Of a stretch of DNA of 64,000 nucleotides, positions 9,511 through 64,000 are shown piece after piece. A program made the translations under genes and the position numbers. Each line of letters starts with the position of its first letter. Within the stretch, counting starts at the first letter, position 1. This DNA comes from Eggerthellaceae bacterium (GTDB taxonomy: Bacteria; Actinomycetota; Coriobacteriia; Coriobacteriales; Eggerthellaceae): positions 1 through 64,000 of the forward strand of contig CAJTDS010000014.1 of the NCBI GenBank assembly GCA_910575165.1. The letters run 5' to 3'. The notes under the pieces were generated by a model that made no database searches, was not told the origin of the DNA, and saw only the letters and a program-made list of their open reading frames with translations.

Positions 9511-10470
9511 CTAGGCCGAAGCGGTGTCGGCCTCGTCGTCGAGGGCGGTTGTCGCGTCGGGGCTGCGGCGCCGGCCCAGCTTGGCTGCGATCTGCGGTCC
9601 GAGCTCGCTCAGCACCACGGCGCAGAAGATGAGCCCGAAGCCGAAGACCATGCGCGCCGTCAGCAGCTCGCCCTGCAGCAGCACCGAGGCCACCACTCCG
9701 AACACCGACTCCAGGCACAGCAGAAGCGATCCCTGGGCCGGGGGCACGTGGGCCAGGCCGACGTTTTGGAGCACGTAGCACAAAGCCGAGGCGAACACCA
9801 CCAGGTAGGCCAGGTTCAGCAGGAAGTCGGGGCTGGTCACGGCCGAGAGCGCGGGTGCGGGTTCGGTGGCGAAGCCTAGCGCCAGCCCCATGAGGCCGCC
9901 GAAGAGGAACTGGTAGACGGTGAGGGCCAGCACGTCGTGGCGCTTCGAATAGCGCGAGATGGCGATGATCTGCGCCGCGAAGAAGAAGGCGCACAGCAGC
10001 GTCATGGCGTCGCCGAAGCCCACGGAAAGCGTCTCGGCGGAAAGGGAGACGCATCCGATGCCCACGATGCACAGCACGGCGGCACCCAGGTTGGCCACGG
10101 TGGGGCGGTTCTGCCCGAGCGCCCACATCATGAACGGCACGATGACGCAGTAGGTAGCGGTGAGGAAGGCGTTCTTGCCGGCCGAGGTGTCGGTGAGCCC
10201 GATGGTCTGCACCCAGAACGCCAGGAAGGTGACGAGCGCCAGCACGAAGCCGGCTTTCAGGCATTCCCTGTTGAGGGCGCCTTTGAGGTGCTTGTGGAAC
10301 ACGGCGGCCATGAGCAGGGCGGTGAGCGTGAAGCGCACGCCGATGAGCTGGGCCGGAGCCAGCACGTCCACGGAGTCCTTCATCACCACGAAAGCGAACC
10401 CCCAGATGACGGTGGCGGCCACCAGCATGAGCTTGTAGACGATAGGCGGTATGTTTCGCGTGCTTCCCAT
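9511..10470 (-). CDS. EamA/DMT-superfamily permease
   Basis: A 319-aa protein with ten predicted membrane helices in two EamA repeats. Typical family features are the first-helix IWGFAFVVMKDS and the C-terminal repeat containing PPAQGSLLLCLESVFGVVAS, the position of the conserved P..a....llEPv motif, with Glu kept. DMT permeases export amino acids or other metabolites; no substrate can be inferred. The C-terminal 25 residues are hydrophilic and acidic. It is a single-gene unit, convergent with the TDT transporter. Confidence 0.85.
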   Translation of the reverse strand: MGSTRNIPPIVYKLMLVAATVIWGFAFVVMKDSVDVLAPAQLIGVRFTLTALLMAAVFHKHLKGALNRECLKAGFVLALVTFLAFWVQTIGLTDTSAGKNAFLTATYCVIVPFMMWALGQNRPTVANLGAAVLCIVGIGCVSLSAETLSVGFGDAMTLLCAFFFAAQIIAISRYSKRHDVLALTVYQFLFGGLMGLALGFATEPAPALSAVTSPDFLLNLAYLVVFASALCYVLQNVGLAHVPPAQGSLLLCLESVFGVVASVLLQGELLTARMVFGFGLIFCAVVLSELGPQIAAKLGRRRSPDATTALDDEADTASA

Positions 10471-60420: not shown

Positions 60421-60915
60421 TGCGGACGGAAAGTTGGACCGCCCAGGCGGCCTGGGAGGGCGTCAGCATGCGTGATAGTGAGACAGTGAGTCTGTTCCTG
60501 CTTGCCAGGGGGGCATGGGCGTCGCGGACTTCGCCGCCATCAGTCGCGGGTGTGCCAGGAACTGAGCTGTCGGCAGGCTTCACCACAGCTTCACGGGCGC
60601 GCCGCGCCGCCCGAGCCGCAGAACGGAGGTCTCGTCCGTAGGTGCGAGGAGAACGGCCTGGTGCGCTCGACATCGGCTAAGGGGTGCAGTCCGGACAACG
60701 CCGCCTGCGAGGGGTTCTTCGGCCGGCTCAAGAACGAGTTCTTCTACCACAGGGACTGGTGCGACGTCTCCCTGGAGGAGTTCGTCGCCAAGCCGGACGG
60801 TTGCATGGAGTACTACCGCGAGGGGCGGATAAAGCGCTCGCTGGGGTGGCTGAGCCCGAATGAGCACAGGAGGAGTCTCGGCTACAGGCGTAGCCGGTAC
60901 GAGAAATCGTCCGCA
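60421..60915 (+). mobile_element. IS3-family element, internally deleted
   Basis: Terminal TGCGGACG (60421-60428) and inverted CGTCCGCA (60908-60915) look like IS ends. Near the left end (60469) a frame begins MRDSETVSLFL, typical of IS3-type OrfA N-termini. At about 60640 the sequence becomes the end of OrfB: KGCSPDNAACEGFFGRLKNE and an RRSLGY terminus. Most of OrfA and the DDE core are gone and frames shift between parts, so it is a non-autonomous relic of about 500 bp. Confidence 0.7.
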
Positions 60916-60936
60916 CCCCCTCCCTTTTTTGTGTGA
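60652..60936 (+). pseudogene. IS3-family transposase OrfB, C-terminal fragment
   Basis: About 95 codons in frame: CEENGLVRSTSAKGCSPDNA, then FFGRLKNEFFYHRDW, then the terminal helix ending SPNEHRRSLGYRRS. This contains the last conserved Glu-bearing part of the integrase core (the E of DDE in the KNEFF region) but not the two catalytic Asp residues. It is open only because of fusion to unrelated upstream sequence. Inactive. Confidence 0.75.
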
Positions 60937-61502: not shown

Positions 61503-61520
61503 CGAGCGATGGGAGCGCAG

Positions 61521-61733
61521 ATGCCTGACAGCTACAAGGAGCTCATCAAGGGCAACCCCGACGAGACCGAGATCAGGAGCTTCCTGGTAAACGGCGACCA
61601 GGTCTCCGTGACCCTGCGCATCCCCGACACCCTGCGCGACGCCGCCAAAGAAGAAGCCAACCTTCGGGGCATGAGCTTCTCCGCCTTCGTGCGCACCTGC
61701 ATGATTGAAGAGCTCGCGAAGAAGGGGGCATAG
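61521..61733 (+). CDS. Ribbon-helix-helix family small protein
   Basis: A 70-aa protein (an ATG at 61509 is an alternative; GGGAG lies 6 bp upstream of 61521). Residues 29-66, VSVTLRIPDTLRDAAKEEAN then LRGMSFSAFVRTCM, fit a CopG/Arc-type ribbon-helix-helix: a beta strand, then two helices. Such proteins act as antitoxins or autorepressors. The next gene starts 5 bp later, so this may be the regulator of the chimeric helicase/restriction ORF. Confidence 0.65.
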   Translation: MPDSYKELIKGNPDETEIRSFLVNGDQVSVTLRIPDTLRDAAKEEANLRGMSFSAFVRTCMIEELAKKGA

Positions 61734-61737
61734 AGGC

Positions 61738-64000
61738 GTGAAGTCGCTAAACAACGTAGGCGCGGAGCGCCTGGGAGACGCCCTCGGCGAATCCATCGAC
61801 GACGGCGCGAAGCTGTCGACAATCAGCTCTTATTTCACCGTGTTCGCCTACGGGGAGCTCAAGGAGGAGCTCTCCAAGGTCGACGAGGTGCGCTTCCTGT
61901 TCAGCGAACCCACCTTTATCAAGCGTATGGCCGACTCGAAGGAGCCGCGCGAGTTCGAAGTAGCCCGCCGCGCGCGCGAGGTCGGCGTCGGCGGCTCGGG
62001 GCTCGAGCTCACACTGCGCAACAACCTAAACCAGCGCGCGCTCGCCCGAGAATGCGCCGAGTGGATCCGCGAGAGGAGCGTCTTCAAGTCCGCCAAAACG
62101 TCCGGCGCCATTCAGCCGGGCGGCACCTACGTGGTGGAGAACCCCTCAGGTGACGACCACGCCTTCATGGGCGCCGCCGTGAACTTCACCCAGGAGGGCC
62201 TCGGCTACGAGCGCCGCCCGGGAACCGTTACCTGCGTGAGCCACTTCGAGAATGCAACGGAGGCCATCGGCCTCAAGATGATGTTCGAGTCGGTCTGGGA
62301 CAACCCCGCCATGGTCGAGGGGGTCACCGCGCAGGTGGCCGCCCAGGTCGAGATGCTCTACCGCGAGAACCCGCCCGAGTTCATCTATTTCCTGACCCTG
62401 TACCATCTGTTCCGCGACTTCATGGAGGACGACGAGGACAACGGCATCCGCCCCGGCTTTAAGTTCGAGGAGTCCGTGGTCTGGAACAAGCTCTACGACT
62501 TCCAGAAGGACGCCGTCGTGGGCGCCATCCGAAAGCTGGAGAAGTACAAGGGCTGCATCATCGCCGACCCGGTGGGCCTGGGCAAGATCTACGAGGCGCT
62601 CGCCGTTATGAAGTACTACCAGGAGCGCAACGATCGCATCCTCGTGCTGTGCCCAAAGCGCCTGCGCGACAACTGGACCCTGTGGACCCAGGACAACGAC
62701 GTCTCGTTCGTTTTCAGCCACTCCGCGCTCAAGGAGGGCTGGGACAACCCCAACGTGTTCCAGATCTGCACGCTCGTCGAGACAAAGGACAACCTGACCA
62801 AGCGCCAGAAGATCGGCCGCGGTCTGCGCCTGTGCGTGAACCAGAACGGCGAGCGCCTGTACGACCCCGAGGCGAACGTGCTCACCGTCATCGCGAACGA
62901 GAGCTACGACGAATTCGCCAACGGCCTGCAAAAGGAGCTCGAGGCGGATGACTTCAAGTTCGGCGTCATCACACCGGAGAGCTTCACGAAGGTCACGGTC
63001 AAGAGCCCCGAGGGCGTCGAGGTGCGCCTGGGCTACGAGAAGTCCAAGCAGGTCTACGACCACCTCGTCGCGACCGGCATGGTCGACGACAAGGGCGCGG
63101 TGACGCCTGAGCTGAAGGCGGCCGCCGAGGAGGGCAAGGTGGAGCTTCCCGCCGTGCTCGAGCCTGCCAAGGAGCAGGTCGAGGCGATCATCATCCACAA
63201 GTCCCAGAGGGTCCAGATCCACGACAAGGCCAAGGAGGTCTCGGTCGAGCTGCAGAAGGACGTCACGCTCGACCCTGCGTTCCAGGCCCTGTGGGACCGC
63301 ATCCGCCGGCGCACGCGCTTCCAGGTCGAGGTCGACTCCGGAAAGCTCATCGAGCATGCCATCGAAGCTATCGACGGCATGCTCGCCGTGCGCCCGCCCC
63401 AGGTGACGAGCGAGCGCGCCTCGCTGGGCATCGACGACGCGGGCGTGAGCGCCGAGGGCACGGGCACCTCCGTGGTGTCCGTTTCGGGAAAGGTGAAATA
63501 CGACCTTCCCGACCCGATCGCAGAGCTTCAGGACGCCGTCGGGCTCACCCGCGGCACCATCAAGGCGATCCTCGAGGGCTGCAGCCGCTTCGACGAGTTT
63601 GAGATCGACCCCACGACCTTCCTCGCGCAGGTCGGCGACAAGATCAACCGCGTGAAGAACGACCTCATTGCCCAGGGCATCAAATACGTGCGCCTTCCCG
63701 AGGACGAGTGGTACACCAAGCGCGACCTCGAGCTCGACGACTACACGGCCTACCTTGGGCAGAACGCATGGAAGCCGGATATGGCAAGCAAGAGCCTGTA
63801 CAACTACGTGGTCTACGACTCGGCGGGGGTCGAGCGCTCCTTTGCCGAGGCTCTCGACAAGCAGGAGGAGGTGCTCGTGTTCGCGAAACTGCCCTCGGCG
63901 TTCAAGATCGACACGCCGCTCGGCAGCTACAACCCCGACTGGGCGTACGTCGAGGAGGCCGACGGCGAGCGCCGCGTCTACTTCGTGACCGAGACCAAGG
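61738..64000 (+). CDS. Chimeric PLD/SNF2-type N-terminus fused to type III restriction (Res) C-terminus, partial
   Basis: Open from a GTG at 61738 to the window end (over 750 codons). Residues 1-220: phospholipase-D-like domain, degenerate HKD (DDHAFMGAAVNFTQEGLG). Residues 240-318: SNF2-type helicase start (LYDFQKDAVVGAI, ADPVGLGKIYEALAV, where ADEVGLGKT is expected, then LVLCPKRLRDNW). At about base 62690-62705 the frame switches to a type III Res subunit: FVFSHSALKEGWDNPNVFQI, KRQKIGRGLRL (motif VI), then the nuclease end with YNPDWAYV and VTETK. Helicase motifs II-V are missing, so ATPase activity is unlikely. Confidence 0.75.
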   Translation, partial: MKSLNNVGAERLGDALGESIDDGAKLSTISSYFTVFAYGELKEELSKVDEVRFLFSEPTFIKRMADSKEPREFEVARRAREVGVGGSGLELTLRNNLNQRALARECAEWIRERSVFKSAKTSGAIQPGGTYVVENPSGDDHAFMGAAVNFTQEGLGYERRPGTVTCVSHFENATEAIGLKMMFESVWDNPAMVEGVTAQVAAQVEMLYRENPPEFIYFLTLYHLFRDFMEDDEDNGIRPGFKFEESVVWNKLYDFQKDAVVGAIRKLEKYKGCIIADPVGLGKIYEALAVMKYYQERNDRILVLCPKRLRDNWTLWTQDNDVSFVFSHSALKEGWDNPNVFQICTLVETKDNLTKRQKIGRGLRLCVNQNGERLYDPEANVLTVIANESYDEFANGLQKELEADDFKFGVITPESFTKVTVKSPEGVEVRLGYEKSKQVYDHLVATGMVDDKGAVTPELKAAAEEGKVELPAVLEPAKEQVEAIIIHKSQRVQIHDKAKEVSVELQKDVTLDPAFQALWDRIRRRTRFQVEVDSGKLIEHAIEAIDGMLAVRPPQVTSERASLGIDDAGVSAEGTGTSVVSVSGKVKYDLPDPIAELQDAVGLTRGTIKAILEGCSRFDEFEIDPTTFLAQVGDKINRVKNDLIAQGIKYVRLPEDEWYTKRDLELDDYTAYLGQNAWKPDMASKSLYNYVVYDSAGVERSFAEALDKQEEVLVFAKLPSAFKIDTPLGSYNPDWAYVEEADGERRVYFVTETK

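Follow-up and report, generated by a model that had tools for sequence, protein, structure and literature searches.

An Open Chimeric Reading Frame in an Eggerthellaceae Genome as the Probable Remnant of an In-Frame Deletion in a Type III-Like Restriction Operon

The window considered here is a stretch of 64,000 nucleotides from an Eggerthellaceae bacterium, and its right end lies inside a long open reading frame. The frame starts at a GTG codon at position 61738 of the + strand and runs uninterrupted past the window end at 64000 to a stop at 64146 on the same contig (C14); 754 of its 802 amino acids fall inside the window. Upstream lies a + strand gene of 74 amino acids (61509-61733) resembling the CopG/ribbon-helix-helix family (Pfam DUF6290/CopG, below cut-off), which is the first gene of the operon discussed below. 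A fragment of an IS3-type transposase (rve_2/rve_3) is found at 60502-60936, about 0.6 kb upstream of the operon start. Past the window, a DUF4238 gene is followed by the Gabija genes gajA (574 amino acids) and gajB (486 amino acids) at contig positions 65073-68254 (L002:11073-14254 in locus numbering), and a pair comprising a Gp49-like toxin-type gene and an HI1420-type antidote gene lies downstream of Gabija (L002:16285-16887).

The frame is a true chimera, as the original prediction had proposed, and profile scans split its halves cleanly. Residues 1-314 match SNF2 and HKD+Snf2 (C3a139) models, with Pfam PF00176 at residues 264-314, and residues 309-754 match the type III restriction model REase_III (PDLC03647) from profile position 494 of 989 onward (6e-126). 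Residues 1-318 are PLD-SNF2-like and the protein is type III Res-like from about residue 320. The parts follow one another on the + strand: an N-terminal PLD-like domain (residues 1-207; 61738-62358), the start of SNF2 RecA1 with the region of motifs Q, I and Ia (62458-62690), the junction (62691-62701), the Res helicase motif V region HSALKEGWDNPNVFQI (62719-62766) and motif VI KRQKIGRGLRL (62800-62832), both placed by alignment to EcoP15I Res (4zcf_C), the end of Res RecA2 with the helical spacer (62833-63789; PDLC03647 match and AF2 model), and the C-terminal PD-(D/E)XK nuclease domain (63790-64000, continuing to 64146; PF19778 RE_endonuc, 4.8e-25). The catalytic D...ETK residues of the nuclease domain (NPD at 63931-63939, ETK at 63991-63999) are conserved as in relatives.

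The N-terminal domain is PLD-like in its fold but lacks the catalytic signature of a PLD nuclease, so the PLD assignment made earlier holds for the fold and not for the H-x-K signature. The AF2 model of residues 1-207 is mostly at pLDDT 70-93 (except a loop at 62-98); its best Foldseek match is SauUSI (PDB 7clg; E 1.2e-5), a PLD-containing ATP-dependent restriction enzyme, and PLDc_2 matches are found in distant relatives of the domain. H-x-K is absent from the chimera and from 19 of 19 aligned relatives, and because the signature is missing throughout the alignment, the domain may lack nuclease activity in the intact proteins as well. The same signature is missing from the PLD-like domain (residues ~118-172) in all aligned members of the helicase family, including loci L043, L046 and L049. 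In one genome (G011, locus L030), the PLD-coding part is far more diverged from window positions 61738-62355 than the rest: amino-acid identity over the whole SNF2 half is 77%, there is no close DNA match before nucleotide 619 of the fusion, and DNA identity to the window is 94-95% outside the PLD-coding part. This pattern suggests that the N-terminal domain may have been swapped by recombination.

Both helicase motors are incomplete in the chimera. In intact relatives, motif I (ADSVGLGKT), motif II (DESH) and motif III (SATP) of the SNF2 motor are invariant in 18 sequences; the SNF2 part kept here ends before DESH, so that motif II and everything after it are lost. The Walker A motif itself (62563-62589) reads ADPVGLGKI and carries two changes, S278P and T284I, at residues that are invariant in relatives including G162, which has the normal ADSVGLGKT. 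The original prediction had seen the GLGKI alteration and missed S278P. On the Res side, motifs up to IV are lost, whereas V and VI are kept: motif V (EGWDNPN) holds the equivalent of EcoP15I Asp509, assigned to that motif (PMC4490356), and motif VI (GRGLR) holds the equivalents of Arg534 and Arg537, matched to motif VI (PMC4490356). An earlier description of motifs II to V as absent is thus right for SNF2 from motif II onward and for Res up to motif IV, but not for Res motif V.

Compared with PLD(HKD)+SNF2 helicases (PADLOC C3a139), the chimera shares the PLD-like domain at the N-terminus and the beginning of RecA1, but it lacks the complete SNF2 core from motif II onward and has GLGKI rather than GKT in Walker A. 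Its C-terminal 60% corresponds to type III Res (EcoP15I Res, PDB 4zcf; PADLOC REase_III PDLC03647), with which it has motifs V and VI, the helical spacer and the endonuclease domain in common; RecA1 and motifs I-IV are missing, so that the complete SF2 motor (I-VI) of a type III restriction enzyme is not present.

The predicted structure of the chimera is confident in the terminal regions, whereas most of residues 208-394 are modelled with very low confidence; the Res part from residue 410 on is mostly at pLDDT 70-90. In the SNF2 segment (residues 241-318), block-mean pLDDT is about 23-49 in the chimera versus about 72-88 in an intact homologue, which was modelled at similar alignment depth and shows the expected strands there. 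The low confidence fits a broken motor core, although a mixed-fragment alignment could also depress it.

Relatives encode the two halves as separate full-length reading frames of about 1,080-1,100 (PLD-SNF2) and 1,010-1,050 (Res) amino acids, on one strand and usually 6-8 kb apart. They belong to one operon with the order CopG-like, PLD-SNF2, DUF4391 (PF14335), Mod (PF01555, MTase_III) and Res, headed in the closest loci by the small CopG-like gene, whose reading frame is 96% identical in L132, L134 and L042 and 45-58% identical in L049, L136 and L137. The closest intact loci (93-94% DNA identity) are in Coriobacteriia-related genomes, and the operon also occurs in Mobiluncus. The SNF2 part of the chimera matches L132, L134, L140 and L141 at 93-94% DNA identity. 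The set of PLD-SNF2, Mod and Res was found in 21 of 80 Res-containing loci from very different phyla (also in Bacillaceae, Clostridia, Bacteroidales and Methanobrevibacter), and the intact arrangement is therefore old and widespread. It recurs at L043:2446-11458 and in 20 further loci, many with DUF4391. None of the annotation tools applied here named the set as a whole; a literature search for DUF4391 with type III systems returned one paper, an incidental one. This intact operon is the parent of the chimera, and its two ends alone are kept in the window.

Several related genomes carry a ribosomal protection gene of the Tet(M/W/O/S) family inside the same operon, at more than one position. 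It lies inside mod in L132, L133 and L141, after a truncated mod in L037, and after SNF2 codon ~292 in L042/L143, and it is also found in L142; the insertions break either PLD-SNF2 or mod. The operon seems to have received genes of this family repeatedly.

The closest collinear intact locus is that of genome G162 (L140), from the same order, which has the same flanks, including the downstream DUF4238 and Gabija DNA. Its left alignment extends from 344 bp upstream of the chimera start to the junction (L002 7394-8701, 93.0%), and its right alignment extends from the junction through Res, DUF4238, GajA and GajB (L002 8691-14342), with 93.3% identity ungapped over 5.65 kb. Relative to this locus, the window shows a net deletion of 7,485 bp. 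The left and right alignments share 11 bases, at window positions 62691-62701, inside the interval of about 62690-62705 first proposed for the junction. These bases form an imperfect direct repeat, GGACAA[C/G]GACG, whose copies in L140 are GGACAACGACG at the SNF2 site and GGACAAGGACG at the Res site (10 of 11 positions match). At the one position where the copies differ, the window carries the SNF2 base, which places the switch within the last GACG, the exact core of the repeat. Among SNF2/Res breakpoint pairs drawn at random, 0.04% have a 10/11 match across the breakpoint and 2.6% have an exact match of 4 bp. The natural reading of the aligned sequences is a deletion between short direct repeats. 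An in-frame deletion fusing two defence genes had been foreseen, and both the collinear G162 locus and the repeat at the breakpoint bear it out; the two genes do not adjoin each other, being the first large gene and the last in the same operon.

That an intact operon was misjoined at two places, or a region collapsed, during assembly is highly unlikely. The assembly is a draft of 41 contigs, which leaves room for such errors, but the exact match at the junction is 4 bp (10/11 imperfect), far below usual assembly overlaps and too short to have misled an assembler. Neither half has a second copy in its own genome, whose completeness is scored at 99.7%. The missing 6.6-7.5 kb was not found in the remaining sequence, where the deleted DNA gave nothing beyond a 39-base match. 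A misjoin with the missing part placed elsewhere in the assembly was rejected because that part was not found there.

A real deletion agrees with the distribution of the fusion. Compared separately, as had been suggested at the outset, the two halves have separate best matches and no full-length homologue, the outcome expected of a fresh fusion. No full-length homologue besides that of its own genome was found among 397 genomes of the order, and none occurs in 72,556 plasmid records, in the fetched loci, in viral contigs (exact degenerate junction scan) or in a genome-collection scan of the best 80 of more than 580 relatives. A new domain family was rejected on these grounds, and with it the original suggestion of a new domain combination. 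The intact operon is already widespread in relatives, and the fusion was found here alone.

An intact frame and conserved D...ETK residues are the counterpoints to reading the chimera as a deletion remnant. Compared pairwise with relatives, both halves have a dN/dS of about 0.1, only slightly higher than the 0.06-0.10 between intact copies, so most of the divergence arose in intact genes. The codon changes unique to the chimera lineage comprise 10 nonsynonymous and 23 synonymous, versus 15 and 115 in five other lineages, and the nonsynonymous share is accordingly higher (10/33 versus 15/130; Fisher p 0.011). Four amino-acid changes of the chimera lineage fall at residues invariant in distant relatives. 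S278P is chimera-specific at the protein level but stands outside this count, since G162 has a synonymous codon difference at that position. These comparisons, based on Nei-Gojobori distances and parsimony counts only, suggest relaxed constraint on the chimera lineage, although the events are few and some may predate the fusion. If the excess is neutral change after the fusion, about 12 substitutions have accumulated; the probability that these leave the frame stop-free is about 0.65-0.70 (from counts made before L140 was added). Since such a number of neutral changes usually leaves no stop, the open frame is no sign of function. Frame conservation was rejected as proof of selection for the same two reasons, and the open frame is less striking for a dead gene than was first supposed, as most of the divergence predates the fusion.

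The biochemistry of type III systems points in the same direction. Type III cleavage requires ATP hydrolysis and a Mod2Res1 complex (PMC4490356). The PF01555 methylase model has no match in the whole genome carrying the chimera, whereas control genomes do match, so even an active Res would be without a type III Mod partner. With neither an intact ATPase nor a Mod partner left, restriction activity of the chimera is not expected.

It is extremely unlikely that the chimera is a functional new enzyme, with PLD and PD-(D/E)XK nuclease domains on one chain, motor-less or acting with other subunits. An open frame and conserved nuclease residues would suit such an enzyme, but its PLD signature is missing, its Walker A motif is altered, its helicase remnant is predicted to be unfolded, its lineage shows an excess of amino-acid change and the type III Res from which it derives depends on Mod and ATP. 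The genomes, plasmids, loci and viral contigs examined also yielded no second occurrence of the fusion. There is a similarly slight chance that an expressed chimera still acts, for instance by binding or nicking DNA without a motor or as a decoy for anti-restriction proteins; if its domains do still act, a single deletion step would have given rise to a new defence protein.

Somewhat less improbable, but still unlikely, is a real deletion that has been kept because the in-frame join carries translation through to DUF4238 and Gabija without polarity, the protein itself being idle. The upstream CopG-like gene and promoter-side DNA are retained at about 94% identity, DUF4238 starts at L002 10148, just past the chimera stop at 10146, full-length GajA and GajB come next, and the intact G162 locus has the same downstream gene order. 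Yet one join in three is in frame by chance, GajAB may have a promoter of its own, and a role in avoiding polarity requires no special selection.

The chimera is very probably the remnant of an in-frame deletion of about 7.5 kb in a type III-like restriction operon, and probably inactive. The deletion is best read as recent. A single event inside the CopG, PLD-SNF2, DUF4391, Mod and Res operon, between the imperfect 11-bp repeats in its first and last large genes, would have removed the SNF2 motor past motif Ia, DUF4391, the whole of Mod and the Res motor up to motif IV. Judged from the repeat, it may have occurred by replication slippage or by short-repeat (RecA-independent) recombination; deletion by way of a tet cassette, as in relatives, was rejected because its own genome holds no trace of a cassette in a search made without a positive control. 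Transcription would presumably proceed from the kept operon head, restriction activity would be absent, and the protein, if made, would join a PLD-like domain to a Res spacer and nuclease through a broken motor and would most likely be inert and drifting.

So read, the locus offers a clear-cut case of restriction-operon loss: one deletion between short repeats takes the methylase and both motors together. With all three lost at once, no unprotected active nuclease should remain. It is also a caution: a chimeric frame that stays open within a defence island gives little support to the idea of a new domain architecture.
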